From positions 1 to 64,000 of the forward strand of contig CALKXV010000006.1 of NCBI GenBank assembly GCA_938005545.1: DNA of 64,000 nucleotides, given 5' to 3'. Every line of letters starts with the position of its first letter. The stretch's first letter is position 1. The DNA is from an uncultured Paracoccaceae bacterium. Its GTDB lineage: Bacteria > Pseudomonadota > Alphaproteobacteria > Rhodobacterales > Rhodobacteraceae. A model generated the notes under the pieces. The model searched no databases. It was given only the letters and a program-made list of their open reading frames with translations, and was not told the origin of the DNA. The translations under genes were made by a program, and so were the position numbers. Below are positions 8,981 to 50,142 of the stretch, piece by piece.

Positions 8981-9599
8981 TTTTCATCCTAGCTGGAATA
9001 GTGCGGCGCTCCGCCCATCCCTTTCAAATTTGCGGCCCCATTGCCGCCAGCCTTTCTCATCATGTCATGCGCCAAGGCCAAAGCGTCACGTCTCAGATGG
9101 CCGCGCCATACAGGAGTTCCGGAAAAGAGGGAAGGTTTTGTTTCAAAACTGCGAATTTTGCTCGAAGCGATGGTGTCAGGACGGCCAGTTTGAGGCTGAC
9201 GGCAACGACTGCACGACGGCCATAAGTGCCCATAAACCGCATTCCTTAGGATGGTTTAGGCCACCGCCAAAGGAAGAATGGAACGCTAACGCATCCTCAG
9301 CGTGTGACACCTTCGATTGCGCAGTCCATGCGCGGCAATTTGCGAAAATCGTCTCGTCGCAACCGACCAAAATCTCCGCAAGTCTGGCCAAGATCTTTCC
9401 TACATCGGAGCAGACCTAAAAGGGTTGATCAGAATGGCGCTCGCGTCAAATTTGTGCCCATTCTAGTCGTGTAACATATTGTTTTTAAAAGAAATATAGG
9501 AATGCGAATATTCATCGAACCGAGTATAGTGACCGGTCAAAACATGGGTTCCTGCTTCGCACCTGTTTTACCCGTCACTTCCACGGCAAACGCCTTTGC
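8981..9599. other. gene-free host DNA between pnp and attL
   Basis: About 620 bp without a supported gene on either strand. Short frames exist (for example 9176-9391 minus) but none has a recognisable product or a ribosome-binding site. The stretch around 9470-9520 is clearly A+T-rich and would suit promoters for pnp (leftwards) or the original serC unit (rightwards). Before the element inserted, this would have been the divergent intergenic region between pnp and serC. Confidence 0.4.
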
Positions 9600-9602
9600 C
9601 TA

Positions 9603-9631
9603 TTGCTGTTACTCCTCCGAATACGTATGTC
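9603..9631 (+). promoter_or_regulatory. stranded host serC promoter at attL
   Basis: TTGCTG (9603-9608), 17 bp, TATGTC (9626-9631), immediately upstream of the left copy of the 31-bp repeat. The serC-proximal copy at 20461-20489 has the same TTGCTG, the same 17-bp spacing and TATCCG, although the spacer sequences differ at most positions. I read the left copy as the original host serC promoter, now cut off from serC and directed into the 3' end of int. Confidence 0.5.
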
Positions 9632-9662
9632 CGTGAGTGGGACACCCTTCCCCAACGAAGGG
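9632..9662 (+). repeat. attL, left 31-bp direct repeat of the integrated element
   Basis: Starts CGTGAGTGGGACACCC and ends with the CCCTTC-N6-GAAGGG hairpin. It is identical over 31 bp to 20490-20520 and the flanks differ on both sides (9631 C versus 20489 G, 9663 A versus 20521 C). The int stop codon lies 7 bp away, the usual arrangement for a tyrosine-integrase element. Confidence 0.85.
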
Positions 9663-9668
9663 AAGTGC

Positions 9669-10694
9669 TCATACCTGTTTCCCCCTTTGTTTTCCAATAC
9701 TTACGCTTTTATCGTCGGGCGCTTGTGTCACTGGTGTGTCAAAAACTGCGTCTGTGACTGTCGGATCTTCCATTGCATGAGCATAGAATTTCATAACTGT
9801 GCCGACGTCTTTCCAACCACCCCTAACGGCTACTGTTTTTGGGTCGATCCCAGCCTGCAACATCGTCGTCGCGAAACCGTGGCGACAACAGTGAGGTGAC
9901 AGTTTCAAAATACCTGCACGGATAATCACGTTGTTCCAAACTTGGCCAACGCTTTCGCCTGACGCGTAGTTGAATACCTGGTCTTCGGGGTTCCGGTTGG
10001 ATGGAATATTGGCCAGTGCGGCGATAACCGGCGGCGGTAAATGTGCTTCCCGCCTTTCGTCGATCTTGGTCTGATTGATCGTCGCTGTCTTGTTGAACAG
10101 ATCGATGTCACCCCAGACTAAAGAACATGCTTCACCACGCCTTGCGCCGGTCCCGAACATGAATAGTGCCAACGCTGCCAAGTGGCGCAAGCCGTCCTCA
10201 TTGGCCTGATTTGCGAATGCGTTAACCCATTCTCGCGTCGCTGGCGTCTTGGTTTTAGCCGATTCTTTGAACCGCTTCACTTTGAGAGGTGAACACCAGC
10301 CAAGTTCGGCCGCGTAGTTGATAATCGCTTGTGTGGGGACGATGCCTTGACGATTCAGGGTCGCGTTAGACAGCCCCGTGTAGTGTCTCTTCGCCCAAAG
10401 TCGGATTGCTTCGCCCGTAATTTTGGACACCAGGGTGTCCTTCCAATAGTCTTCAATCGGTTCAAGGAAACGGGATTCGCCGCCTGCCCCACGATAGGCG
10501 ATGGCTGCTTGAGAGAACATCAGTGATGCCCCCGGGCCATCGAGATGACTTCGCCACGCTTTGGCTTCGACTTCCGCCGCGACCCTCTGCGCGAGGGTTT
10601 TGTCCTCTGTGCCTGTAGTGCCTCGTAATCTCCGACCGGCGACTGTTCCTTGGTAGTGCCAGATTTTGCCACGGCGTTTGATCTTGAGTGCCAT
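9669..10694 (-). CDS. int: tyrosine-recombinase integrase of the element
   Basis: Site-specific recombinase, 341 residues, expected to integrate and excise the element at the 31-bp att core. The catalytic set is visible: R185 in FGTGARRGE, K210 in NQTKID, H268 and R271 in SPHCCRHGF, W294 in GGW and the nucleophile Y304 in KFYAHA. The N-terminus (KIKRRGKIWHYQGTV) looks like an arm-binding segment and the SAM-like core-binding domain follows at about 60-140. Starts at ATG 10694, 175 bp inside the preceding HTH gene in another frame. Its stop is 7 bp from attL. Confidence 0.95.
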   Translation of the reverse strand: MALKIKRRGKIWHYQGTVAGRRLRGTTGTEDKTLAQRVAAEVEAKAWRSHLDGPGASLMFSQAAIAYRGAGGESRFLEPIEDYWKDTLVSKITGEAIRLWAKRHYTGLSNATLNRQGIVPTQAIINYAAELGWCSPLKVKRFKESAKTKTPATREWVNAFANQANEDGLRHLAALALFMFGTGARRGEACSLVWGDIDLFNKTATINQTKIDERREAHLPPPVIAALANIPSNRNPEDQVFNYASGESVGQVWNNVIIRAGILKLSPHCCRHGFATTMLQAGIDPKTVAVRGGWKDVGTVMKFYAHAMEDPTVTDAVFDTPVTQAPDDKSVSIGKQRGKQV

Positions 10695-10861
10695 TCAATA
10701 GCCTCCATGAACGCTTGGACGTGATGCTTGAACATCACCACTTTAGCACCGATTTTCGAGTAGCAACCGAGCGCCCGAACATCATCACACACGCGCCGCT
10801 CAGAAGCACCGAAGTGTGCAGCCAAGTCTTTCGGTGTGATAAATTCCGGGGTGATTGGCAT
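10520..10861 (-). CDS. AlpA/excisionase-like HTH protein
   Basis: 113 residues. Residues 5-60 (EFITPKDLAAHFGASERR...KVVMFKHHVQAFMEA) have the winged-HTH layout of AlpA/excisionase proteins, which act as recombination directionality factors or activators in prophages and satellites. The tail (about 65-113) is basic and lies entirely in the 175 bp that overlap the start of int in another frame, so it may be little constrained. The start at 10861 touches the stop of the MerR-like gene, suggesting translational coupling in a regulator-HTH-int operon. Confidence 0.72.
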   Translation of the reverse strand: MPITPEFITPKDLAAHFGASERRVCDDVRALGCYSKIGAKVVMFKHHVQAFMEAIEWHSRSNAVAKSGTTKEQSPVGDYEALQAQRTKPSRRGSRRKSKPKRGEVISMARGHH

Positions 10862-11418
10862 TAGCCGTCGCCCTTAATTTCAATAGAGATACCATCGCGG
10901 CCTGGTGCTGCAAGACCATGCAGCATGACCCGCTTGAGGTCTGCGGGCAGGCTTGCCGCCATACGGTCTGCATCGACTATGTGCGCATGAGCGCCTGCGT
11001 CCACAGCGCCCCAAAGCTCTTCTATCGAGTCAGCACTCCGAGTATTCATATACTCGTTTTCATCATGATCGCCGTAGATCCGTGTCGAAACCCAAAACGA
11101 AAAGAACCGTTTTTCAGGTCGATCAGTGTCCACAAAGACGTAGCCGTCGTTTTTCCGTAGCGCGTAAATGACAGGAATGACAGAGATATGCGCCATCCAC
11201 TGGCACACACCAATCATCGGAATCGTTGGTAAAAGCTCGCGGACGATTGCAAGCTGCACAGTCTCAAAAAGAGAGTATTGCCAACGCCGGTTCTGTTGCT
11301 GTTCGCCCATGTTGCCTAGAAGGTCGCGACGCCGCCAGTCGCGCAGCACGTCATTCTTGATACCCGAAAGGTGGCAAGCCATCGACTGGGTTACGTAGTG
11401 CTTGACATAATTGGGCAT
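10861..11418 (-). CDS. MerR-like regulator, candidate master switch of the element
   Basis: 185 residues from ATG 11418. The N-terminus (HLSGIKNDVLRDWRRRDLLGN, then RRWQYSLFETVQLAIVREL) follows the MerR-type pattern of HTH, wing and second helix pair at residues 8-65. The remaining 120 residues have no recognisable domain and could be a sensor or oligomerisation part. A longer frame begins at GTG 11466, but the predicted promoter would start transcription near 11439, so 11418 is preferred. A 14-bp-arm inverted repeat covers the promoter, pointing to autoregulation. It is followed without a gap by the HTH gene and int. Confidence 0.65.
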   Translation of the reverse strand: MPNYVKHYVTQSMACHLSGIKNDVLRDWRRRDLLGNMGEQQQNRRWQYSLFETVQLAIVRELLPTIPMIGVCQWMAHISVIPVIYALRKNDGYVFVDTDRPEKRFFSFWVSTRIYGDHDENEYMNTRSADSIEELWGAVDAGAHAHIVDADRMAASLPADLKRVMLHGLAAPGRDGISIEIKGDG

Positions 11419-11430
11419 TGGCTCGCCTTT

Positions 11431-11468
11431 GTGTGATCCCTCACGCTTATAATTGTGAGAGACCACAC
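11431..11468. promoter_or_regulatory. 14-bp-arm inverted repeat, candidate operator of the element regulator
   Basis: Left arm GTGTGATCCCTCAC (11431-11444) and right arm GTGAGAGACCACAC (11455-11468) are inverted repeats with 12 of 14 positions paired, separated by 10 bp. The repeat spans the -10 box and the spacer of the regulator promoter and the likely transcription start. A related TGTGAGAGA occurs again at 12221-12229. Such a site suits binding by the adjacent MerR-like protein. Confidence 0.65.
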
Positions 11469-11474
11469 AGTCAA
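11446..11474 (-). promoter_or_regulatory. predicted sigma70-type promoter of regulator-HTH-int
   Basis: On the minus strand TTGACT (11474-11469), a 17-bp spacer and TATAAG (11451-11446), each one base off consensus. Transcription would begin near 11439, about 20 nt before ATG 11418. It is the best promoter match seen in the element and is overlapped by the inverted repeat. Confidence 0.65.
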
Positions 11475-11478
11475 CTGC

Positions 11479-11682
11479 CTATTGTTCCAATTCATACGAT
11501 TTCGGAAAATCATACGCATCCAACGCATTGAACAGCGCCTGAGAATCCCGCTCCGCGCCCTCGATTAGCTGAATGCTCAGATCAGAGTCGTAGGTGATCA
11601 GTTCATTCAAGCTGACCAGATAGGCCCTCAGACGCCAGGAAAGCTCCAACATCTCTTTGGGTGTTTTGGCGATTTGGTTCAC
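11479..11682 (-). CDS. small element-encoded protein of unknown function (67 aa)
   Basis: Mostly helical 67-residue protein (MLELSWRLRAYLVSLNEL, then AERDSQALFNALDAYDFP). Starts at GTG 11682 with GGAGG about 8 nt upstream; the GTG overlaps the stop of the 35-codon frame before it (GTGA). Family not recognised. Last gene of a three-gene coupled unit, ending 5 bp before the regulator promoter. Confidence 0.6.
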   Translation of the reverse strand: MNQIAKTPKEMLELSWRLRAYLVSLNELITYDSDLSIQLIEGAERDSQALFNALDAYDFPKSYELEQ

Positions 11683-11786
11683 TTTTCAACCTCCGCTTCT
11701 CTCAAACGCCGCAGAAATTCGTCTTTCTGCGCAGGCGTCAGCTTTCTCAGGACGTCAATTGCGTCGAATACTTCTTGGACGCTCAT
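11679..11786 (-). CDS. 35-residue micro-protein between two coupled genes
   Basis: Reads MSVQEVFDAIDVLRKL, then TPAQKDEFLRRLREAEVEK, an amphipathic helix-turn-helix-like peptide. Its ATG overlaps the TGA of the 121-residue gene (ATGA) and its TGA overlaps the GTG of the next gene (GTGA). Both overlaps and the sensible composition support a real translated frame. Function unknown. Confidence 0.5.
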   Translation of the reverse strand: MSVQEVFDAIDVLRKLTPAQKDEFLRRLREAEVEK

Positions 11787-12148
11787 GACCCAAAATTCCC
11801 GCGTTGCTCTGGCACCACTCCAAGCGCTCGGTACGACATTGCGACCAAAGACGTTTGATGGATGTTCAGATCCATATCGCCGTTGTCGTCGGCAAAGACG
11901 ATTTTAAAGTACAAGTCTTCCATCGTCCTTGGTTCGAAATCCGCCGCTTGGTGTTCCAGTCGCAGCATACTGTCGAACACCGCTTGCTCTAATTTTTCTG
12001 AGCAATCGCCGGGAAGCGCGCTGTATTCGTCTTTGACGGCCTGCCAGCGATGATAGAGTGCCCGAAGCGGGCTTTCAGTTGATGTGGCGGCAGGTGTGGC
12101 TAACATGGGGACAATCGCGGCCCCAAGTATCAGGTCTCGTCTTTTCAT
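11783..12148 (-). CDS. exported protein with Tat-like signal, unknown function
   Basis: 121 residues. The N-terminus MKRRDLILGAAIVPMLATPA has twin arginines followed by a hydrophobic stretch, a Tat-like signal peptide with cleavage near 22. The mature part is mostly helical and acidic (KLEQAVFDSMLRLEHQAADF, DDNGDMDLN). Family not recognised. First gene of a coupled trio with the 35- and 67-residue products. An exported protein in a head-only element is unusual and may serve the host or act at the envelope. Confidence 0.6.
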   Translation of the reverse strand: MKRRDLILGAAIVPMLATPAATSTESPLRALYHRWQAVKDEYSALPGDCSEKLEQAVFDSMLRLEHQAADFEPRTMEDLYFKIVFADDNGDMDLNIHQTSLVAMSYRALGVVPEQRGNFGS

Positions 12149-12532
12149 GGTTTCTTCTCACAGTTTGGCTTGTCATGGCCACGTCAGCAGCGGGCTAACA
12201 CCGGGGCGTTGACAACTTCCTGTGAGAGAAGCCGAACGTATTTACCTAGCGGCTATTGTATTTCGCTCGCGCCCCGGCAAGAATGCCAGACACGATCCGC
12301 CGCCAAGCGGGTTCGCCATTTCGCTGCCATCCGCGCCAACGGATGAAACCTTAGTCGGGTGTTGCAGCTATCACAGTCCGGGTTGTCACGCCCACGGATA
12401 TCCTTCACCAATTCAAAGCACAATGCAATGGGCCTTTGGCCTTGCGTTTTGGGCAACACTGCGAATGTCGGCAACGAGCCTAAAGCGAACGCTGAAACAT
12501 CTACAGCCCAATCGCTAAGGCGGCAAAGAAAA
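12149..12532. other. gene-free stretch inside the element
   Basis: About 380 bp without a supported gene. Frames on both strands (12222-12518 plus, 12253-12558 minus) have no recognisable product. Two inverted CTGTGAGA-type sites lie about 55 bp apart (near 12156 and 12220) and resemble half of the regulator operator. Confidence 0.35.
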
Positions 12533-12554
12533 AGACCGGCACAACAGCCGGTCT
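12533..12554 (-). terminator. intrinsic terminator of the VPLPA-CTERM gene
   Basis: AGACCGGC-N6-GCCGGTCT, and on the minus strand the stem runs into TTTTTCTTT. It lies 26 bp past the stop of the 172-residue gene. Confidence 0.8.
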
Positions 12555-12579
12555 CCAAATGTCATCCAACGGGAAATTG

Positions 12580-13098
12580 TTAGGATTTTTTACGTTTTGA
12601 AACCAAACTAAGACCAAGCGCGCCCAAAAGTAGCAAGCCCGATGCAGGAAGAGGAACTGCGGGTATTGGAGCTTCTCCCGAAAACCCTCCCACGCGCACC
12701 GTGCCATTGCCGGTATTGGTAAATTGAACGCTCGTGATACCTGTGAAACCAGAAACACCTGTCAGGTCGGCAAAGAGGCCGGTGATGCTGCCTTGTGGAT
12801 TTGTATTCACAAAGACACCGCCCAAATCAGAAGTTGCCGTCACTTGAGAGCCTGTGCCCTGCAAGCTGTAGAAGAAGCCGCTCAGATCGAATGCACCGCC
12901 CCCGATCGAAAGTGTCGCAGTCGAATTCGGCCCGGCGTTTGCAAGAAGGATGCACGGCGTGTCAGCAGTGGGACAGTTACCGCTTGTCGTTTGTCCATCA
13001 ATCGAAAAGTCGCCAGACGAAAGAAGTGTCGCAGCAGATGCGCCTAGTGTAGTGGTTCCGAATACGACCACAGCGACCAAAAAACTCTTGAGATTCAT
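12580..13098 (-). CDS. VPLPA-CTERM surface protein, cargo gene of the element
   Basis: 172 residues with an N-terminal signal peptide (about 1-22, cleavage ASA/AT) and a C-terminal sorting signal: VPLPASG (about 149-155), a hydrophobic segment LLLLGALGLSLV and a KRKKS tail. This is the VPLPA-CTERM signal of Rhodobacterales, a variant of PEP-CTERM, which is recognised by an exosortase in the inner membrane. The 125-residue middle is rich in Gly, Thr, Ser and Asn and beta-like, with one Cys pair (about 42 and 49). It has its own promoter and terminator, so it can be expressed independently of the silent phage genes. No exosortase is encoded in the window. The function of the mature domain is unknown. 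Confidence 0.85.
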   Translation of the reverse strand: MNLKSFLVAVVVFGTTTLGASAATLLSSGDFSIDGQTTSGNCPTADTPCILLANAGPNSTATLSIGGGAFDLSGFFYSLQGTGSQVTATSDLGGVFVNTNPQGSITGLFADLTGVSGFTGITSVQFTNTGNGTVRVGGFSGEAPIPAVPLPASGLLLLGALGLSLVSKRKKS

Positions 13099-13130
13099 AG
13101 TAAATTTCCACCCAATTGATACAACTTAAC

Positions 13131-13159
13131 ATCATATTGAAGTTCAGCCACAGAGTTAA
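13131..13159 (-). promoter_or_regulatory. predicted promoter of the VPLPA-CTERM gene
   Basis: On the minus strand TTAACT (13159-13154), 17 bp, TATGAT (13136-13131), in an A+T-rich context with an A/T run just upstream. The -10 box is one base off consensus. It gives a leader of about 26 nt before ATG 13098, which is preceded by GGTGGA. Confidence 0.55.
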
Positions 13160-13306
13160 GAAAAAAAAGATTTGCCGAATCAAATGCTTGAGAAGATTCG
13201 GATATGTCGCGCAGCGTACATTTTGTTTTGAGGCAGCCAGCCGCAGCTTTGTCCTACATGGCTGATCTTCGCTGCAATAACTCATTTTGGAGTGGCTATT
13301 GGGGTT

Positions 13307-13573
13307 TCAGACTATGAATCGGAATGGCAACGCATGTCCTGTGTCTGTCTTCAATTTCGCCACAGCCTTCTCACGGATGACTTCCCGCCCTTCCATGCTG
13401 AGTTGCACGTGGCTTGGTGCATAGATGCGATACTCATGCTCGGGGCATTCCGCCAGCTTAACCTGAAAAATCTTGAAGTGATCGAGGATAACCGTGAATT
13501 GTGCGAGGACAACGTTGCCGTTGATCCTCGTCGTTTTTTGCGGAACGCGAAACTGACGAATGCGAATACGCAT
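13307..13573 (-). CDS. small element protein after the spike gene (88 aa)
   Basis: 88 residues with alternating strands and one C-terminal helix. The spacing of FTVILDHFKIFQVKLAE, RIYAPS and EGREVIREKAVAKL faintly recalls the SpoVG fold, but I would not assign it. The start overlaps the stop of the spike base gene by one base (TGATG), so it is translated with the head genes. It is the last gene of the head operon before the cargo promoter. Confidence 0.55.
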   Translation of the reverse strand: MRIRIRQFRVPQKTTRINGNVVLAQFTVILDHFKIFQVKLAECPEHEYRIYAPSHVQLSMEGREVIREKAVAKLKTDTGHALPFRFIV

Positions 13574-13836
13574 CAGAACACCGCGAGGATGTTCGTGGCC
13601 GTGGTGCCAGTTGCCAGAACCCGTGAAGCGCGTAAGGGAAGCATGATGCCACCCGGAACGCCCACAAACGTGCCCGTGCTTCCGTCTTTCATCTGCACAG
13701 CAACGTCACCGGTCCCTCCGATATAGAGTGCACGAGAAACCTCGGAGAGGTCAGTATTGTCGTCTGGTGTGACGGCAAGAATACCCTCAGCGGGGCTTTC
13801 AAGTGCGGGTCGGATATTCTCAAATTGATCAGCCAT
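13573..13836 (-). CDS. GTA-type head spike base protein
   Basis: 87 residues. The pattern SRALYIGGTGDVAVQMKDG, FVGVPGGIMLPLRASRVLATGTTATN matches the spike base family named after R. capsulatus gene rcc01079, a component of the head spikes of its gene transfer agent that help attach to the cell surface. The gene overlaps portal by 8 bp. A large spike tip protein, as in the GTA, is not seen here. Confidence 0.8.
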   Translation of the reverse strand: MADQFENIRPALESPAEGILAVTPDDNTDLSEVSRALYIGGTGDVAVQMKDGSTGTFVGVPGGIMLPLRASRVLATGTTATNILAVF

Positions 13837-14896
13837 TTTCGGTTCCTTTCAGGTCGATAAAGTTCAATGCAATTTCCGGATCGATTCCCGCCTCTTTCGC
13901 TGCGGCGAGTGTTTGGATGATGCCCATGGCAGCACGCGCCCGCCCGCCTGCATCGAAGGCTTGCAAAGGTCGCATCACGTCCAAGGTGACTGTCGATCCC
14001 AGCTTTTCAGTCGCCTCTTGCGCAATCATTCCGGCTATCGGTTGCAAGCACCACTGAGCGAGATGCCTTTGACATTCACGCACCATCGGTCCGGTCGTTG
14101 AGATGTTGCTTAGGCCGGGTAGGACGCCGTAGACCATTTCAATGGAAGCCTTGGCGGCTGCCAGAGTTTCCTTGGTCATGGCCTTGCTCAGATCAGGTCC
14201 GACATCTGACGGCTTAAGATCGGTTTGTGGCGCCGGGCCACCCGCAGCTGTTACGTTGACCGACTCCCGCACCAGTGTCTTGCCTCGGAACGCCCGAAAC
14301 CCTCGCGCCAGTGCTTCCATGTCCTGTTCAGGCGCTTCAGGAAATGGGATGACAGACGACCCAAGAGGCGCGTTGGCATAGACTTCGGAAAGTGCGCTTT
14401 CAAGGATGTTCAGCAGACCAGCCGTGAGGCGCGCGCGGCGCAAAGGGCTTTGACCAATGAATGGCAGGCCAACATCTGCCCCGATACGGAAGTGCAGAAC
14501 TTCGGCGGCCAAAGCGGTGACAGAGCGCCCACCGGAGGTTTCGTATAGTCCGACCTGATAGGCTTTGGGCTTGGAATTGCGAGTGGTCAAATCCCAATCC
14601 GTACAGGGTAGCAAGCCTTCATCACGGATCAGGAATAAGGCCTCACCGCGAAGTGCAAGGGATCGACCAGCAAGCGCCAAATCGCGTGATGTGATCAGGT
14701 CGGTGCCCTCAACATCGGCAAGGCTCAATCCGCCTTCCCACAGGCTGACACATCCCTGAACTGTGCCGGTCAGTTCTGCAACACCATCTATTCCAGTGAT
14801 GTAGTCAGCTCGCGCCGCCATGATCTGAGACGTGTAGCCCGTACCAGATGACCGGGTTTCGATTTGTTCTTTTCGTTTGAATGGCCACATGCTCAA
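13829..14896 (-). CDS. phage portal protein
   Basis: HK97-type portal (355 residues), which forms the dodecameric DNA gate at one capsid vertex and is the platform for head assembly. Recognised from the layout MWPFKRKEQ at the N-terminus, AELTGTVQGCVSLWEGGLS (40-60), IGQSPLRRARLTAG, and the C-terminal MVYGVLPGL, CLQPIAGMIAQE. It is a little shorter than typical portals (380-420). Starts at 14896 (ATGA overlap with the connector-like gene; a second in-frame ATG follows two codons later). Transcribed after protease and connector, the reverse of the usual portal-protease-capsid order. Confidence 0.88.
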   Translation of the reverse strand: MSMWPFKRKEQIETRSSGTGYTSQIMAARADYITGIDGVAELTGTVQGCVSLWEGGLSLADVEGTDLITSRDLALAGRSLALRGEALFLIRDEGLLPCTDWDLTTRNSKPKAYQVGLYETSGGRSVTALAAEVLHFRIGADVGLPFIGQSPLRRARLTAGLLNILESALSEVYANAPLGSSVIPFPEAPEQDMEALARGFRAFRGKTLVRESVNVTAAGGPAPQTDLKPSDVGPDLSKAMTKETLAAAKASIEMVYGVLPGLSNISTTGPMVRECQRHLAQWCLQPIAGMIAQEATEKLGSTVTLDVMRPLQAFDAGGRARAAMGIIQTLAAAKEAGIDPEIALNFIDLKGTENG

Positions 14897-15450
14897 GCCC
14901 TCCGATATGGGCGCAAGAGATCAGCTGCGCCGGAATGCTGAATGGCGCGCGCTATCCAATTGGGTGCACGCGTCACCGACCATTGCAGATCGGACGTGAT
15001 GGTTTGCGAAATTGAAGATGCGCCGGGTTCATTGAGGCTATCCTTTGCGCCGCTGAGGTATTCAGCCAATCGACGGTAAGCCTCGGGCACAGCCGCCGGC
15101 ACACTACCACCGCCAACTTGTGCCGTGATGCGGAATTGACCGTCGGACGGCAAGCAATAGCCCATTGGCCCCTCGGGGAGCGTGACTGAAACCCACGAAC
15201 CGCTCTCCCATTTTTCAGCGGCAAGTGACACCACGGGCGTCAGAGGTGCAGTCCAATCGTCGTCTTCATGGCCTTCGATTGTCCAAACCACTTCCCGCTC
15301 GGTCCATCGATGCGAAACGTAGGTCTCGATCCGCGACCAAATCATGTTGCTATCCAACGCAGTCGCATTGTCCGACAGCCCGCCAGGAGTGTCAGGAAAT
15401 GCGACTGGCACTGATTCAACCTGCTTCAAGAGATCAATCATGGGCGCCAC
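14893..15450 (-). CDS. putative head-tail connector protein
   Basis: 185 residues. The C-terminal NWIARAIQHSGAADLLRPYR is typical of gp6-like head-completion proteins in rhodobacterial prophages; the rest has alternating strand/helix elements. The assignment comes from this segment and from its place between protease and portal. Start at 15450 or the internal ATG four codons later (MIDLLKQVES). It overlaps protease by 13 bp and portal by 4 bp. Confidence 0.6.
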   Translation of the reverse strand: MAPMIDLLKQVESVPVAFPDTPGGLSDNATALDSNMIWSRIETYVSHRWTEREVVWTIEGHEDDDWTAPLTPVVSLAAEKWESGSWVSVTLPEGPMGYCLPSDGQFRITAQVGGGSVPAAVPEAYRRLAEYLSGAKDSLNEPGASSISQTITSDLQWSVTRAPNWIARAIQHSGAADLLRPYRRA

Positions 15451-16040
15451 CTCGCCATGGCACGTTGCTTTGGAAGGATGACACCGCCCTTGGATCGTTC
15501 CTCGATGGTCGTTTCGTCATAAGCGGGTCGCGTGACGGCACTCAATTCGAATAGAACAGCCGCACGAATGATCCGAATGAGGGCGTTGCCTTCTGTCGGA
15601 TTTTCCTCTTGCGTTTCTTCCGCATCAGACACTGCTTCCGGCGGTGGAATACGAAATCCGGGGGATATTCCGATGATCAAACCTGCCGCAAAACCTGCCA
15701 AGAAGTCCTGAACCCATGATGTTCGTTGGATTTCCTCAGTGAGGATTGCATCGAAAATCAGCGCTTCCGCCGTTTCGGTGAGTGTCAGCGTTCCATTCTT
15801 TCGGCTGGCCAAAGGGTGATCAAAGCTGTGGCCAAGAAGAAAGTGAATTTCGCGGTCTGGATCATCCACAGCGAACGAAAATGCACCTGGCGCAAATTCC
15901 TCTTTCTTTGGGCGGCGTCCATTGCCGCCCGCTGAAAGAACCGCGCGCTTACCATAGGGAAAGCGCCCGCGCAGACGGCGGGTGCCATCACCTTCACGGC
16001 GAAGCTCAAGCCCTTCGAAAATGGCACCCCTATCCATCAC
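15438..16040 (-). CDS. HK97-family prohead protease
   Basis: Serine protease of family U35/S78 that matures the capsid by removing the N-terminal delta domain of the major capsid protein. 200 residues, typical. Seen: GRFPYGKRAVL (25-35), the catalytic-His segment LLGHSFDHPLASRKNGTL (about 68-85), FLAGFAAGLIIGISPGF and the catalytic-Ser segment LFELSAVTRPAYDETTI (about 163-180). Its start overlaps the stop of the capsid gene (ATGA). Confidence 0.93.
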   Translation of the reverse strand: MMDRGAIFEGLELRREGDGTRRLRGRFPYGKRAVLSAGGNGRRPKKEEFAPGAFSFAVDDPDREIHFLLGHSFDHPLASRKNGTLTLTETAEALIFDAILTEEIQRTSWVQDFLAGFAAGLIIGISPGFRIPPPEAVSDAEETQEENPTEGNALIRIIRAAVLFELSAVTRPAYDETTIEERSKGGVILPKQRAMARWRP

Positions 16041-17290
16041 TGAACTCCGGTCAGGATTTCGAGTTGGACGCCGCGTGCCACCGTCACGTCCATAGTGACC
16101 AGCGCAGTCAGTCGCAGTTGCCCGGATTTTGCGTCGGAATATGGATCACGGATAAGATCGACCGCACCCCACATGCCGCAGAAAACCGGTGCCACCCCGT
16201 TTGTATTCGTAGTCAGCAATGCGTTGGACGCGGCGGGGTCACCGGACGGCGCTGCGATCCCGTTGGTGGTCAGTTGAACGTTGCCGATTTTGGCAACCAA
16301 ACGATCCCATTCTGAAATGGACGTACCAGAGATAAGCGCGTCGTCCATCTCATCATAGATTTCCGGCCGGAGAAGCAAATTGACCGCGCCAGGGCCACTT
16401 GCCGCGTTGGCTGTCATGAAACGTACAGCGGCCTTTCGGAACATTGCATAATCGGCAGCTGCGTCGATTGCAGTTTCAGTGATGCCATATGTCGCCGCGC
16501 CGGGAAAAATACCAAGAGGTTCACCGCCCGAGCCACTGCCAAGAAAGATTGCCCGATCCGATTCCTGTTGAATTGCCGCGCTCATGTCGCGTCGAACCGA
16601 TTGTTCCAACCCTTGGCCTGCCTGCTTTAGCGCCTTGCGGGTGATCTTCATTTGGACGCCCAAAGTGTGATCCGGGGTCATCGGCCGATCAATGGTCGTG
16701 TAAGCTTGTGGTCCAGGCACATCCGACGTTTCCGTTGCCGCCCAACCTGGCTGTGCTCCGCCGGTTGCAACGGGGTATTCGATCTCACCGACACCGACAT
16801 TGATCATCCGACACCCCATTTGGGTTGCGCTGGAATTGGCAAAGAGACGTTCGATTGTTGGCATTGTTCGGATTGGGTCAGGAACACCACCCGCAAGCGT
16901 TTCTCCGGCCCGCGTTTCCAGTGCCTCAAGGGGAACCGGGATGCCTTGGAAACCGCCCTGACTGCGGAGTTCTTCGACCATTTCAGCGGTGGCGCCTTCG
17001 AGCTTACGACCTTCATCAATGGCAAGGGCTGCCTGTCGCACCTCGAACTTATTTGCCATCTCGGCCCATTCTTTTTCAGAACGGGTCTCAAGCTCCTCAC
17101 CAGCCTCGCGGCGTTCGTCATCTTCGGCAACAAGTGCTGCGCGGTATTGAGTTTCCTTTGTCCGGTACTCGGTATCCAACTCAGTCATCTTTCGGGTTTC
17201 ATCCTCGGATGGCTTCTCGATGTTCGCCAGTTCGGCAAGCGACTGCCGGATTTCAGACCGGCGCAGTTCGAGTTTCTTAGATGTCAGCAT
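16037..17290 (-). CDS. HK97-fold major capsid protein
   Basis: 417 residues. Residues 1-105 are strongly charged and predicted coiled coil (RRSEIRQSLAELANIEK, then ERREAGEELETRSEKEWAEM), as in the scaffolding delta domain cut off by the protease. The HK97 fold begins near 125 (TMPTIERLFANSSATQMG), with the E-loop and P-domain helices (QSVRRDMSAAIQQESDRAIF) and the C-terminal VTMDVTVARGVQLEILTG. Starts at ATG 17290 overlapping HNH. It precedes protease, whereas the usual phage order is protease then capsid. Confidence 0.95.
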   Translation of the reverse strand: MLTSKKLELRRSEIRQSLAELANIEKPSEDETRKMTELDTEYRTKETQYRAALVAEDDERREAGEELETRSEKEWAEMANKFEVRQAALAIDEGRKLEGATAEMVEELRSQGGFQGIPVPLEALETRAGETLAGGVPDPIRTMPTIERLFANSSATQMGCRMINVGVGEIEYPVATGGAQPGWAATETSDVPGPQAYTTIDRPMTPDHTLGVQMKITRKALKQAGQGLEQSVRRDMSAAIQQESDRAIFLGSGSGGEPLGIFPGAATYGITETAIDAAADYAMFRKAAVRFMTANAASGPGAVNLLLRPEIYDEMDDALISGTSISEWDRLVAKIGNVQLTTNGIAAPSGDPAASNALLTTNTNGVAPVFCGMWGAVDLIRDPYSDAKSGQLRLTALVTMDVTVARGVQLEILTGVQ

Positions 17291-17603
17291 TTGGTTGTCC
17301 TTTCATGCTCGACAGGAGGTTGCGCCATTCCTGGCGTTTGGGCGGAAGCGGCTTGTGGCCTATTTCCAGCCGGGTCTTTCTCGCGTGGCATCGCCCGCAA
17401 AGAATCTGCAAATTTGATAAAACGTAGGAGAGGTCGGGTCGGTCACGGACAGGCAGAACGTGGTCACATTCCAAGCGCCGACGTTCACCGCATTGAACAC
17501 AAGCCCAATTGTCGCGATCGAGCGCTTGCATGCGCAGAGATTTCCAGCGCGGGCCTCGGGTAACTTTGGCTGAATGGCGCTTGTAATCTTTCCTCAACCC
17601 CAT
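17277..17603 (-). CDS. HNH endonuclease of the packaging module
   Basis: 108 residues from ATG 17603, overlapping the terminase stop by 10 bp. The zinc-dependent HNH motif is complete: C35-x2-C38, D47-H48 in LECDHVL, N64 in SNLQ, C69-x2-C72 and H73 in CGRCH. In HK97-like phages and satellites an HNH protein next to the terminase stimulates cos cleavage during packaging. This supports cos-type packaging for the element. Confidence 0.9.
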   Translation of the reverse strand: MGLRKDYKRHSAKVTRGPRWKSLRMQALDRDNWACVQCGERRRLECDHVLPVRDRPDLSYVLSNLQILCGRCHARKTRLEIGHKPLPPKRQEWRNLLSSMKGQPNADI

Positions 17604-19111
17604 GCGATCCGCCCTCCCTTGTGGGCGGGTCTGCCCATGATCCGGGCACCTTCGGCGACTGCCAGAACAGCGGCACATGCGGCATCGATACGACCCATTG
17701 AGCGGCCTTTGACGATCTTGGAATTGCCCGCCGGATCGATGAACACGGCCGCTTCACCGATGGCGTGTCGCAACAAGAGACTTTCGGAAACGCTTACCTT
17801 CCCGTCGAAAATGGACCGCCGGAAACGTTCCACGTCTTCAGACCCATCCTTGAAGCCCATGCCGCGCCAAATCACAGGGGAACGGTTGCCGATTTCTGTG
17901 AGCGCATCTCCGATTTCGGATTGTTTGAACCTATCCGCGACGATAGCCGCGATATGCTCGCCTTCCACATGACCCAGAACCCGGCGTAGCCATTGGGCCA
18001 AAGGAACGGTTTTCTGCCCCATCAACGCCAGTTCTTTGCGCTTGTGCATTTGGCTGTAGAGGTCACCAACAGCATCGGATTGCCCACGTGCTTCCAAATT
18101 CGGAACCGTGCCGAAAGCACCCCATGTCTCAAGGCGGCCGGTCTCGGGCCAGAGATAGGCGGCGGCACTCATTGACGCAGATTGACCTTGGTCCAACCCG
18201 ATCACGACTTGCCCCTGACGAGGTGGAAGGTCGTCGGTTTCGCATTGCAGCCATTCGTTCAGGTCGAGCAGTGCGTCCCGATTGTCTTCAGCAACACGTT
18301 CATTCCGAGACAAAAGGCGGAAGCGAGACAGTGCAGATCCACCTCGCGCCAAGGCCAATGCAGCATCTTCCTTGAGCCGCGTCATGGTGGGACCAATCCC
18401 ATGTTTGGAACCCGGATTTGCGATCAGCAAACTTTCGGGATCGTCCACCGGCAGGTTGGGTGTGGGACGGTGTTCCTGCCGGTAGACCCCTGGTGCGTCC
18501 CAATCCAACCACATGCTGAAAGGGTGCATGTCGTTCGGAGCTGAGGTGCTTATGATCAGCGCTTTGCCATCTCGCTTAGAAAGGCCTGTAAGCAGTGCCG
18601 CTTCAAGTTCGTCGCCCGCCGCGAGGGGCCAATGGCCGCGCTCATCAAGAACCGCCAATGTGGGCGATGAACCAAGTGCCGACTTTCCGTCCGCCGAGAT
18701 GGCCTTGAGGATGTGCGAGCCATTGTGATCGTCATATTGGATTTCAAACCGGGGTTGGCGGCGGACGGTGATCCGTTCTTGCACGTCCTCCGGCAATGTC
18801 TGGATAAAGCTGGCGGTGTAGTTCCAAGCAATTTTCGCCTGATCCTGCGTTCTCGCAGCGATGATAATTTCCCGCTCAGCCGCGTCAGACCATGCGCCCA
18901 GTAATTCACCGGCGCAGAGCATCGCAGAGATCGCCGACTTGCCGTTGCCGCGCCCCACACTCAGAACACCGACGTTGATCCCGTCAGCAAATGCGCCATC
19001 TATGAACCGGTTCTGGTACGGGGCCAGCTTGATCTGACGACCCGTCAACCGCCCAGTTGGCACCGATAGGGTTTTGCAGAAGCGTTTTACCAGCGTGGAA
19101 GTCTTAGCCAT
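17594..19111 (-). CDS. terminase large subunit
   Basis: ATP-driven DNA packaging motor and nuclease, 505 residues from ATG 19111. The N-terminal ATPase shows Walker A (SVGRGNGKSA, 51-60) and Walker B (LAVLDE, 152-157), then coupling motif ISTSAPND (about 178). The C-terminal RNase-H-like nuclease has VIGLDQGQS, the middle acidic AAIVADRF and a final MGRIDAACA. The frame is open upstream to 19162, but MAKTSTLVKRF is the likelier start. No small terminase gene is recognisable next to it. Confidence 0.93.
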   Translation of the reverse strand: MAKTSTLVKRFCKTLSVPTGRLTGRQIKLAPYQNRFIDGAFADGINVGVLSVGRGNGKSAISAMLCAGELLGAWSDAAEREIIIAARTQDQAKIAWNYTASFIQTLPEDVQERITVRRQPRFEIQYDDHNGSHILKAISADGKSALGSSPTLAVLDERGHWPLAAGDELEAALLTGLSKRDGKALIISTSAPNDMHPFSMWLDWDAPGVYRQEHRPTPNLPVDDPESLLIANPGSKHGIGPTMTRLKEDAALALARGGSALSRFRLLSRNERVAEDNRDALLDLNEWLQCETDDLPPRQGQVVIGLDQGQSASMSAAAYLWPETGRLETWGAFGTVPNLEARGQSDAVGDLYSQMHKRKELALMGQKTVPLAQWLRRVLGHVEGEHIAAIVADRFKQSEIGDALTEIGNRSPVIWRGMGFKDGSEDVERFRRSIFDGKVSVSESLLLRHAIGEAAVFIDPAGNSKIVKGRSMGRIDAACAAVLAVAEGARIMGRPAHKGGRIAWG

Positions 19112-19192
19112 TGGCCAGCCCTTCCGTGTGTGTAGCAAAAGAGGCCCGCCCCGCGTGCCCACCCCCTCCCAGAACGCCGGGCATTGGGACCA

Positions 19193-19564
19193 TCATTGCG
19201 CCAAATCCCGAACAGCCTGGGCAACAATCGCGTCCCACTGCGTCACAGCACCATGCACAAAGAAATGTGCGCGTCGGTCACCACTGCCGAACTCAACCAC
19301 CACAGCATGATCAGCGGTCCAGCCTATCGTAACCTCATCGCCAGCCTTGGCCTGCTGTGCGGCTGCCTGGTATCCTTCAAGTCCCTGACCGACCAACGTG
19401 CCGTTGATCCAAATCTGGATTGAATCCTTGAGTTCACCTGTGACTTCAGGAGCGCGGTCTTGGGCGATGCGTGCCAGAGTGGCCGTGGCATTGCTCACCA
19501 CCTCATCAGCGTTACGCAATGCCTTCTGGGACCACAGTTCGACAGTCTTCGCAAAGTCACCCAT
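19193..19564 (-). CDS. HK97 gp10-like head-tail adaptor
   Basis: 123 residues. The pattern NATATLARIAQDRAPEVTGELKDS ... VTIGWTADHAVVVEFGSGDRRAHFFVHGA is that of HK97 gp10/Gifsy-type head-completion proteins. It comes first in the head operon, 81 bp before terminase, whereas in phages it normally follows the capsid gene. Its presence means that the element provides the interface on which a tail would dock. Confidence 0.82.
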   Translation of the reverse strand: MGDFAKTVELWSQKALRNADEVVSNATATLARIAQDRAPEVTGELKDSIQIWINGTLVGQGLEGYQAAAQQAKAGDEVTIGWTADHAVVVEFGSGDRRAHFFVHGAVTQWDAIVAQAVRDLAQ

Positions 19565-19928
19565 CGTTATTTGTCCTTCTCAATCTCTCTTACGTTTCAC
19601 TTCTCAACCCCATTGCTGGATGGTGAGGGTCTGAGCGAAGGGCATAGGACGACTAACCCCAGCGTGTGCCGGAGTTAGTCCCTACACCCTCGCGATCTTG
19701 CTGGCCGGAGCCGGGCCGTCGCTTTGGGCCTAACTGGTCGTGCGTTCCCGCCAGTCAGTCGGTTGCTACTTGCGACACCTGAGACGCTGTGCCGTGGATC
19801 GGGCTTCAACCTTTCGGACTGCCCTTTGCCTTTGATCCAACCCCGTGGTAGGCATTACGTGTCAGACGCCACCGTCATGCCCCGCCAAAGAGCTACCGTC
19901 CGCCTGACACGGCCCCGCTTCGGCGGGG
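19565..19928. other. structured gene-free stretch upstream of the head operon
   Basis: 364 bp with no supported protein but several inverted repeats. At 19625-19691 a nested stem can form: GAGGGT/ACCCTC outside, TAGG/CCTA, then GACTAAC (19651-19657) with GTTAGTC (19674-19680) and two further short pairs around a GTGT loop. GTGTCAG (19859-19865) pairs with CTGACAC (19904-19910), and GCCCCGC-TTCG-GCGGGGC lies at 19912-19929. It could be a non-coding RNA, a long leader of the head operon, or a packaging (cos/pac) site, since such sites usually lie just before the terminase genes. A 29-codon frame (19852-19763 minus) exists but is weak. Confidence 0.45.
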
Positions 19929-20135
19929 CTAATATTCTTCAAGAACCTCCAATTCAGTTTCGTTGAGAGATTCCGAGACCAATCGGTTCATGATCGCGGT
20001 CTGCTTTTGCGACGGTTTCCATGACTTGCGCTTGGCCTGCTTGAGTATCGATTGCGCAAAGTTCGCCTCCCATTCGTCATGGGAGTTTGAAGAGATGCGC
20101 ATGTGATGCAGGAGGACGTCCAGAGGTCGGTTCAT
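19929..20135 (-). CDS. small element protein of unknown function (68 aa)
   Basis: 68 residues from ATG 20135, preceded by a strong GGAGG at good spacing. Basic and helical (HDEWEANFAQSILKQAKRKS, then QTAIMNRLVSESLNETELEV). Family not recognised. The start overlaps the stop of the 57-residue gene (ATGA). The longer frame to 20264 is not needed. A perfect tetraloop hairpin follows the stop. Confidence 0.6.
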   Translation of the reverse strand: MNRPLDVLLHHMRISSNSHDEWEANFAQSILKQAKRKSWKPSQKQTAIMNRLVSESLNETELEVLEEY

Positions 20136-20305
20136 GACGGACCCTCCACGTAGTTTATAACGCTTTGGTATTCGTCGTCTGTGAGGGCCAAAAGGGCGGA
20201 CGTGGCTAGAAACTTGCGCTGACCTGGTTGCAGGCGGGCATTCAGGACCGCCACCAACTGCCACATCGAAACACGGTCAAGACTGGTCAACGTAAAGCCG
20301 ACCAT
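20132..20305 (-). CDS. small element protein of unknown function (57 aa)
   Basis: First gene at the attR end. 57 residues from ATG 20305 (TSLDRVSMWQLVAVLNARL, then FLATSALLALTDDEYQSVI), helical. The open frame extends to 20503, but that part runs into the att repeat and the serC promoter, so the inner ATG is preferred. Coupled by ATGA to the next gene. Family not recognised. Confidence 0.5.
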   Translation of the reverse strand: MVGFTLTSLDRVSMWQLVAVLNARLQPGQRKFLATSALLALTDDEYQSVINYVEGPS

Positions 20306-20460
20306 GCGGCTGACGCGTTTTAGGTCCGGGTGAACGAGGCGAGAGAAACCATGAACAATGCGCGAACCGCTTGTGTCAGATTTGTGCCAATCCGATGGGC
20401 GCGTTCCTGCATCGTTCTGCACAGCGTTGCAGGAACCTGCACCGTGAGACCTTTTGTCTA

Positions 20461-20489
20461 TTGCTGTTTTTTCTGGGTTTGAGTATCCG
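20461..20489 (+). promoter_or_regulatory. serC promoter supplied by the element
   Basis: TTGCTG (20461-20466), 17 bp, TATCCG (20484-20489), ending directly at the 31-bp repeat. Box positions and the preceding CTATTGCTGTT are the same as at attL (9600-9631), while only about 8 of the 21 intervening bases agree. The transcript would begin within the first bases of the serC leader. Because this side of the repeat belongs to the element, the element appears to bring a substitute promoter for the gene it splits. Confidence 0.55.
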
Positions 20490-20520
20490 CGTGAGTGGGA
20501 CACCCTTCCCCAACGAAGGG
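20490..20520 (+). repeat. attR, right 31-bp direct repeat of the integrated element
   Basis: Identical to 9632-9662 over 31 bp. It forms the first half of the serC leader RNA and contains its CCCTTC-N6-GAAGGG hairpin. Tyrosine integrases often use short inverted repeats or hairpins of structured RNA genes as core sites; a leader RNA is an uncommon choice. Confidence 0.85.
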
Positions 20521-20545
20521 CGCATATCTGTGAGGATATTCAGAA
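20490..20545 (+). ncRNA. serC-type leader RNA
   Basis: A 56-nt leader directly before serC with two hairpins: CCCTTC-N6-GAAGGG (20503-20520) and ATATC-TGTGAG-GATAT (20524-20539). The second buries AGGA, the ribosome-binding site of serC, in its loop and stem. Position and architecture fit the serC motif, a candidate cis-regulatory RNA known upstream of serC in Alphaproteobacteria, and the exact identity needs a covariance-model test. The first hairpin lies entirely within the att core, so integration leaves the RNA intact. Confidence 0.7.
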
Positions 20546-21700
20546 ATGGATATAGAACAACCGGCGACGCGGCCGGGTAACCCGCGTTTTTCGTCTGGCC
20601 CCTGTGCCAAACATCCTTCATTTTCGCTGGAAAGTCTTAACAACGCCGCACTTGGGCGTTCGCACCGGGCTGCCATCGGAAAATCCAAGCTGAAAGACGC
20701 GATTGAGCGGACCAAAGAAATCCTGGGCGTGCCTGAGGATTATCTGGTTGGTATCGTTCCGGCGTCGGACACTGGCGCTGTTGAGATGGCGATGTGGAAC
20801 CTTCTGGGCGAGCGGCCTGTCGAAATGGTGGCTTGGGAAAGTTTTGGTGCGGGTTGGGTGACGGATGTCGTCAAGCAGTTGAAACTGGACGCGAAAGTGA
20901 CCACCGCTGATTATGGCGAGATTGTTGATTTGGCCGCCATTGATTGGAATGCGGATGTTGTTTTCACTTGGAATGGAACGACGTCGGGTGTTCGTGTGCC
21001 TGCGTCTTTTGACATTCCGAGCGACCGCCTGGGTTTGACGATATGCGATGCAACGTCTGCGGCATTTGCACAGGATTTGCCGTGGGATCGGTTGGATGTG
21101 ACCACCTTCAGCTGGCAGAAAGTGTTGGGTGGCGAGGCCGCACATGGGATGATTATTTTGTCGCCGCGGGCGGTGGAACGGCTTGAAACCTATACACCTT
21201 CCTGGCCATTGCCGAAGATTTTCCGGCTGACCAAGGGCGGTAAGTTGATTGCGGGCATTTTTGAGGGTGCAACGATCAACACGCCGTCGATGCTGGCGGT
21301 TGAGGATTACCTGCAAGCCCTGGATTGGGCTGTGAGTGTTGATGGGCTTAAGGGTTTGATTTCGCGTGCGGATTCAAATGCCAAAGTGCTTCATGATTTT
21401 TGCGAGACGCGCGACTGGATTGCGAATTTGGCGGTTGATCCTGAGACGTGGTCGAACACTAGCGTCTGTCTGAAGTTTACGGATGCGCGGATTGTTGATG
21501 GCGCTGCTTTCGCGAAAGCAGTGGCTAAGCGCTTGGAATCGCAGAATGTTGCCTATGACATTGGGGCTTACCGCGATGCGCCTGCAGGTCTGCGGATCTG
21601 GTGTGGTGGCACGGTTGAGACGGCTGATCTTGAGGCGTTGACGCCTTGGCTTGATTGGGCCTTTCAGACCGAAATCGCGGCGCTTCAAGCAACCGAATAA
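20546..21700 (+). CDS. serC: phosphoserine aminotransferase
   Basis: PLP enzyme converting 3-phosphohydroxypyruvate and glutamate to phosphoserine; also used in pyridoxal phosphate synthesis. 384 residues, the class found in Alphaproteobacteria and archaea-like lineages. The PLP lysine is K192 in [15 protein letters not shown], and D168 in TICDATSAA contacts the cofactor; SSGPCAKHP at 16-24 is the substrate loop. Starts at ATG 20546 behind the leader hairpin. serA follows after 79 bp, an apparent serC-serA operon whose promoter now lies in a mobile element. Confidence 0.97.
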
Positions 21701-50052: not shown

Positions 50053-50114
50053 CGAAAGATTTTGAGACCCCGTTTTCATGTCCGGGTAATGGCATGATAC
50101 CTCCCTGTTGGACT

Positions 50115-50142
50115 GGCCGGGCCTTGCGCCCGGCCTTTTTTT
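50115..50142 (+). terminator. intrinsic terminator of the response-regulator gene
   Basis: GGCCGGGC (50115-50122), loop CTTGC, GCCCGGCC (50128-50135) and seven T residues. 62 bp past the stop. Confidence 0.95.

Follow-up and report, generated by a model that had tools for sequence, protein, structure and literature searches.

The window analysed here is a stretch of 64,000 nucleotides of contig CALKXV010000006.1, from an uncultured Paracoccaceae bacterium. It carries an element of approximately 10.9 kb, element B, which ends directly upstream of serC, the gene for phosphoserine aminotransferase (Table 1). Element B is an integrative element with a tyrosine integrase: the integrase gene adjoins one attachment (att) end, a direct repeat is present at both ends, and relatives have empty sites. 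The repeat is an identical 31-bp core, CGTGAGTGGGACACCCTTCCCCAACGAAGGG, and the order at each end is the same, with CTATTGCTGTT followed by 21 nt and then by the core. Promoter-like hexamers precede both copies, TTGCTG-17-TATGTC at the left end and TTGCTG-17-TATCCG at the serC-side end. The core is the start of the serC leader RNA (RF00517). The covariance model of this leader found an intact copy at 20493–20544, directly before the serC start, with a score of 65 bits. The copy on the far side is truncated and scored 35.5 bits, barely above the cut-off of 35 bits. The search recognised no further serC leaders in the rest of the genome, and ARAGORN found no tRNA genes in the window. The original prediction had placed the att core within the serC leader, first hairpin included, and had put CTATTGCTGTT at equal distance from both cores with a TTGCTG-17-TATNNN element at both ends; all of this was borne out. 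The serC open reading frame (ORF) shows 71–90% amino-acid identity to the ORFs that follow the leader in the comparison loci.

To characterise serC sites that contain a single leader, we assembled 88 loci, consisting of 60 fetched regions, 27 of 30 leader loci and locus L003; the other three of the 30 were omitted as possible element carriers. A TTG lies 34 bases before GTGGGAC in these hosts (T in 87, T in 86 and G in 86 of the 88), and TA is found at −11/−10 in all 88. The predicted host promoter of serC is thus a conserved TTG-17-TA, and transcription would be expected to start at the first bases of the core.

The serC-side ends of 28 distinct elements from Rhodobacterales and Hyphomicrobiales, the window included, were then compared with these sites (L067 was dropped from the set, reducing it from 29 to 28, prior to counting). 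All 28 have TTG at −34, and 26 have TA at −11, with a shift to one base later in the other two. This is the same register as in the 88 single-leader sites. The pattern TTG-N20-TA occurred 27 times in the 4,872 positions scanned in the 200-bp arms of the 28 elements, against an estimated 5 or so expected at 1/1024 per position, and in 26 of these arms it has the exact −34/−11 placement before the core. In the hosts, the TTG and TA bases make up the five positions of highest information; in the elements TTG is invariant and TA is within the top nine informative positions, with positions of a T-tract and G in between. Mean sequence identity between elements and hosts is merely 0.36. All 28 elements scored as element-type when left out of the model, and 85 of the 88 hosts were negative; four additional serC-side ends (G124, G271, G370 and G057) scored 63–74 under the same model. 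The leaders on the serC side of elements score 65–75 bits, overlapping those of empty sites. A chance match of CTATTGCTGTT was also considered, and is made unlikely by the comparative register.

Empty sites indicate which flank belongs to the element. In the genus Litoreibacter, the 400 bp on the integrase side of the element in G171 are homologous to sequence in 18 of 19 congeners, and the 400 bp on its serC side are homologous to none of those 18. In G403, the 19th congener, the match is limited to the final 44 bp on the serC side, and the site is best interpreted as a scar left by an element. Similarly, the single congener in the genus of G349 matches the integrase side and not the serC side. 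The original prediction had named empty sites that equal the serC-side flank as the observation that would speak against it; we looked for such sites and found, G403 excepted, the match to the integrase-side flank instead. Together with the register of the 28 ends, the Litoreibacter sites give good support to the prediction that the element carries a putative substitute promoter for serC beside its attP core.

Several observations weigh against this reading. Grouping at 65% identity sorts the 28 arms into 8 clusters, the largest with 21 members, and the 28 ends are therefore not 28 independent cases. The host set consists mostly of the best-scoring leaders and is no random draw. A strict sigma-70 scan of 20100–20600, which uses the E. 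coli consensus, calls no promoter, and the −10 hexamers match the E. coli standard poorly; because the strict scan is negative, the promoter call rests on comparison and not on a consensus match. Genome G244 has two leaders without an element, at a contig break: its second leader begins a contig and its first has a host-type promoter. It was rejected as an element carrier, and L067 was for this reason dropped from the serC-side set. Finally, the arm is likely to be an integrase-binding region as well, so that its T-tract, GG and ACCTGCA repeats may be conserved in part for recombination. Taken to its limit, this last point would make the conserved serC-side sequence nothing but the attP arm for integrase or excisionase, with an incidental likeness to a promoter. 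Repeat blocks resembling arm sites (GTTCCTGCA, GTTCTGCA and AACCTGCA) do lie just upstream of the promoter, and a T-tract with GG within the −35/−10 spacer is found in 23 of 28 elements (in the window at 20467–20480) versus 4 of 88 hosts. A role in recombination alone is nevertheless improbable: TTG, present in 28 of 28, and TA keep to the register of the hosts, serC would be left without an evident promoter if they were removed, as the recognised element genes point away from it, and scars that have no close integrase retain the promoter part best.

The left end of element B also has a correctly placed TTG-17-TA, and it had been predicted to be the host's own serC promoter, which would resemble that of the element by coincidence. 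This now appears improbable. The sequence at 9577–9662, core included, is 84–86% identical to the serC-side arms of the elements in G349 and G240, and shorter, weak arm blocks extend upstream of 9577 as far back as 9438. The left end has a log-odds of +41.1, which is element-type, where 85 of 88 hosts are negative. Over its last 60 bp, the best identity to an arm is 0.78 and that to a host 0.65, the host in question being itself a scar candidate. The gene neighbourhood differs as well. In G001, which belongs to the same genus and is 62% complete, and in one Litoreibacter genome, serB is the divergent neighbour at serC, and in G001 a host-type promoter lies beside serB. In the window pnp instead of serB now neighbours the serC locus, and serB is on another contig of this genome (C29, 33800–34654; L250), with no core recognised upstream of it. 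Both genes were named from their sequences, serB without a family search.

These results argue that the left end is the decayed arm of an older element, A. Identity between the two ends of element B is 0.63 across 60 bp, and each end most resembles a different element type, so that element A was probably distinct from the resident element B. The two copies of CTATTGCTGTT are then putative element promoters of different age, not a host promoter and its copy, and the window records at least two rounds of replacement in series. The original prediction thus held for integration into the leader, for the substitute promoter and for the intact leader on the serC side, and failed for the host origin of the left promoter. 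Among left ends, 56 of which were scored jointly and those of G095 and G309 separately, other element-type scores were obtained for L158 (+33.1) and G095 (+33.3), and the left end of G309 scored −19.6. A positive 'left' score of L182 came from a right end cut by a contig end, and L215 (+1.8) is ambiguous; neither was counted. The segment at 9288–9446 (159 bp, single copy in the genome) is 73% identical, in inverted orientation, to a contig end near the integrase in G057. As this is its only homologue, and an inverted one, the segment was not assigned to element A.

Element-type promoters were also found where only one leader remains. Three of the 88 single-leader sites have one (G332, +28; G288, +29; G027, +19), and the promoter of G403 scores +42. 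No homologues of ten element proteins of the window were found in the 16–18 kb around the sites in G332, G288 and G027 or in the 2.9 kb available for G403, and the whole genomes of G403, G332 and G288 contain no integrase relatives at E 1e-10. G403 retains 44 bp, directly upstream of the core, without any difference from the G171 element, and its arm is degraded. Decayed arms lie upstream of the promoters in G288 and G403; no arm is visible in G332. G027 is the weakest of the four cases: its genome encodes an integrase of 31% identity on a different contig, no arm is left and the promoter scores +19 to +22. The T-tract in the spacer is likewise visible in the three scars G403, G288 and G332. 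The serC gene may have retained these promoters once the elements themselves had decayed. G124 and G271, which have two leaders and an element-type serC-side promoter and are without a close integrase, look like intermediate states.

We therefore propose, with a probability of roughly 85%, that a family of elements recombines in hairpin 1 of the serC leader and supplies serC with a substitute promoter, and that this happened twice or more in the window. The tyrosine integrase would recombine in the first hairpin, just downstream of the expected serC start, and the old promoter with half a leader would be stranded on the far side. The serC-side arm ends in the putative substitute promoter at the host distance, from which serC would gain its new promoter while keeping its own leader except for roughly the first 15 nt. 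Selection presumably acts on continued serC expression. Another promoter inside the element, or read-through from it, is very unlikely to drive serC and render the arm promoter dispensable, because the family-matched element genes are all on the minus strand, directed away from serC, and the arm promoter is constant while the cassettes vary between elements. In a wider reading, the start of the serC leader is the specialised target of an entire mobile-element lineage, which exchanges the serC promoter at every entry and leaves domesticated promoters behind; part of the alphaproteobacterial serC promoters would then be element-derived and perhaps respond to non-host signals; we regard this as possible, at somewhat below even odds.

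The distribution of integrases was examined in 394 family genomes. Two leaders are present in 15 of them, and 18 of the 394 contain a relative of the integrase with an E-value of 1e-40 or below. Fifteen of these 18 have an integrase at least 50% identical (this genome included, and two being fragments), and the other three are at 35–37%. Such an integrase is found in 12 of the 15 two-leader genomes, one of them as a fragment. Two more, G124 and G271, lack a close integrase and have an element-type promoter on the serC side. Two-leader genomes and this integrase clade coincide in this sense. A scan of named genomes yielded 75 loci, of which 72 (L158–L229) were examined. Core-like sequence was present no more than 200 bp beyond the integrase match in 59 of the 72, versus 1 of 109 controls drawn from the same loci at distances of 3 and 5 kb; among the 13 loci without it, L171 and L197 carry core variants there. 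A tree was built of 60 integrases, from 59 of the 72 loci and the window (L168, L203, L211, L213, L218, L220, L222–L224 and L226–L229 were omitted). Fifty of them, from both Rhodobacterales and Hyphomicrobiales, were labelled as using the serC leader on the basis of the core-like sequence, and this label changes at least four times on well-supported branches; target use is thus clustered and not confined to one clade.

The position of strand exchange was narrowed down by comparing the two core copies of individual elements. In G286 the two ends of the pair have different bases at position 2 of GTGGGAC, and in L177 at position 12. The loop of the hairpin has four C residues in all 88 hosts and all 28 serC-side copies; in 56 integrase-side copies it has four in 41, three in 7 and five in 1, and 7 were not read by the pattern. 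The end differences and the three-C loops make exchange most likely within the 5′ strand or the loop of hairpin 1. As a separate observation, integrase cousins in Bradyrhizobium (L216, 11022–11124; L221, 11061–11162; L222, approximately 1530–1570) have their end next to the perfect hairpin of a different RNA, which in L216 and L221 is the Rhizobiales-2 small RNA (sRNA; RF01723); the integrase group thus seems to favour hairpins of RNA genes.

Table 1. Features of element B, its serC-side flank and the older scar in the window
Feature	Position	Strand	Evidence
Scar of older element A: its serC-side arm, decayed, with putative promoter; −35 TTGCTG 9603–9608, −10 TATGTC 9626–9631	9438–9631	+	84–86% over 77–86 bp (core included) to G349/G240 right arms; log-odds +41.1
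Integrase-side att core copy, start of serC leader, hairpin 1	9632–9662	+	Direct repeat; RF00517 35.5 bits at 9635–9674
Tyrosine integrase	9669–10694	-	PF00589 3.3e-24; phrog_1
Putative excisionase	10520–10861	-	phrog_1840 5e-4, weak; homologue beside integrase in 8 other elements
Portal protein	13829–14896	-	PF04860 2.5e-10
Prohead protease S78	15438–16040	-	PF04586 9.4e-16
HK97-type major capsid protein	16037–17290	-	PF05065 2.7e-16; TIGR01554
HNH endonuclease	17277–17678	-	PF01844 6.1e-9
Terminase large subunit	17594–19162	-	PF03354, PF20441; phrog_9
HK97 gp10-like head completion or neck protein	19193–19564	-	PF04883; phrog_169
serC-side arm of element B, conserved arm repeats and putative substitute promoter; −35 TTGCTG 20461–20466, 17-bp spacer, −10 TATCCG 20484–20489	20370–20489	+	Arm alignment of 12 elements; 28-element comparison
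serC-side att core copy	20490–20520	+	Direct repeat
Intact serC leader RNA (RF00517)	20493–20544	+	65 bits
serC, phosphoserine aminotransferase	20546–21700	+	ORF; named from leader family and the original prediction, not by protein-family search

Element B itself encodes capsid, protease, portal and terminase, and the same gene content in a small element was found in the IMG/VR contig L069, a 10-kb contig that covers a complete relative from core to core, and in G309 (L066). Cassettes differ among the elements, being HK97-type in the window and L069 and including a lambda-type terminase and portal in G309. Capsid-forming phage-inducible chromosomal islands (cfPICIs) are induced and packaged with the tails of a helper phage and are not known to have a tail or lysis module of their own. 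By Pfam, element B has no tail families except the gp10-like neck protein; the ORF at 13573–13836 matches phrog_12296, 'tail fiber protein' (1.4e-28), and several other ORFs have no assignment. The cfPICI satellites make their own capsid (PMC11389934), as element B is predicted to do from its genes; the G171 relative at the same site has no capsid among the five proteins scanned of its 17 ORFs. Element B resembles cfPICIs and, given the one small 'tail fiber' match, is not filed as one. Other genes were noted in passing: a VPLPA-CTERM sorting-domain protein inside element B (12580–13098, minus strand; TIGR03370, barely above the cut-off), and on a Litoreibacter element an Mrr-type restriction endonuclease (PF04471; L060, 7499–8503, plus strand), possibly a defence gene. 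The window also contains the sRNA SorX (RF02784, 77.5 bits; 50069–50141, plus strand).

SerC has two roles, in the synthesis of serine and of pyridoxal phosphate (PLP). The dozens of elements described here display the states before and after integration, repeated use and abandonment in nature, which opens to experiment the question of how a parasite maintains the function of an important gene of its host; whether the element changes the supply of serine and PLP can also be tested. Mobile elements could rewrite core promoters in this way. Few documented examples of a restored promoter came to light. The titles and abstract openings listed by searches of the open-access literature, with subscription papers outside their scope, contained no mention of serC as an integration site, of a leader hairpin as target or of serial and scar states.

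Among known systems, integration into tRNA genes is the classic case, in which the integrase uses a hairpin of the RNA gene and the element restores the gene; the serC elements would restore a promoter and an mRNA leader. Integration of SXT/R391 elements gives prfC a new promoter and N-terminus. They enter prfC at its 5′ end and can form tandem arrays at one site (PMC4489591). They are conjugative and have a protein-coding target; the serC elements share with them the 5′-end target and the repeated use of one site. Islands and prophages at dusA also integrate at the 5′ end, with putative −10 and −35 sequences before and after, and expression is thought to survive (Farrugia et al. 2015, PMC4482086). 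In those cases the element replaces the 5′ end of the coding sequence, whereas at serC only the promoter and the first leader nucleotides would be. Phage HK022 at torS/torT in E. coli is a further parallel: there, integration detaches a host gene from the promoters that drove it, and one located in the end of the prophage takes their place (Carey et al. 2019, PMC6814406). At serC, too, the host promoter is separated from the gene and promoter-like sequence lies in the element end; the takeover was shown experimentally for HK022 and is predicted from sequence for serC. HK022 changes the regulation of a sensor gene, and its int end faces torS. The serC elements differ in that the target is the leader hairpin of a biosynthetic gene and the putative promoter lies on the end opposite int, and in that the carriers are small, several with capsid genes, and span two bacterial orders. 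Promoter replacement by a prophage is thus already known as a principle, from HK022 at torS and as a proposal for the dusA islands; the novelty lies in the use of a leader hairpin as target, in how broad the family is, and in the cases of serial replacement and of scars.

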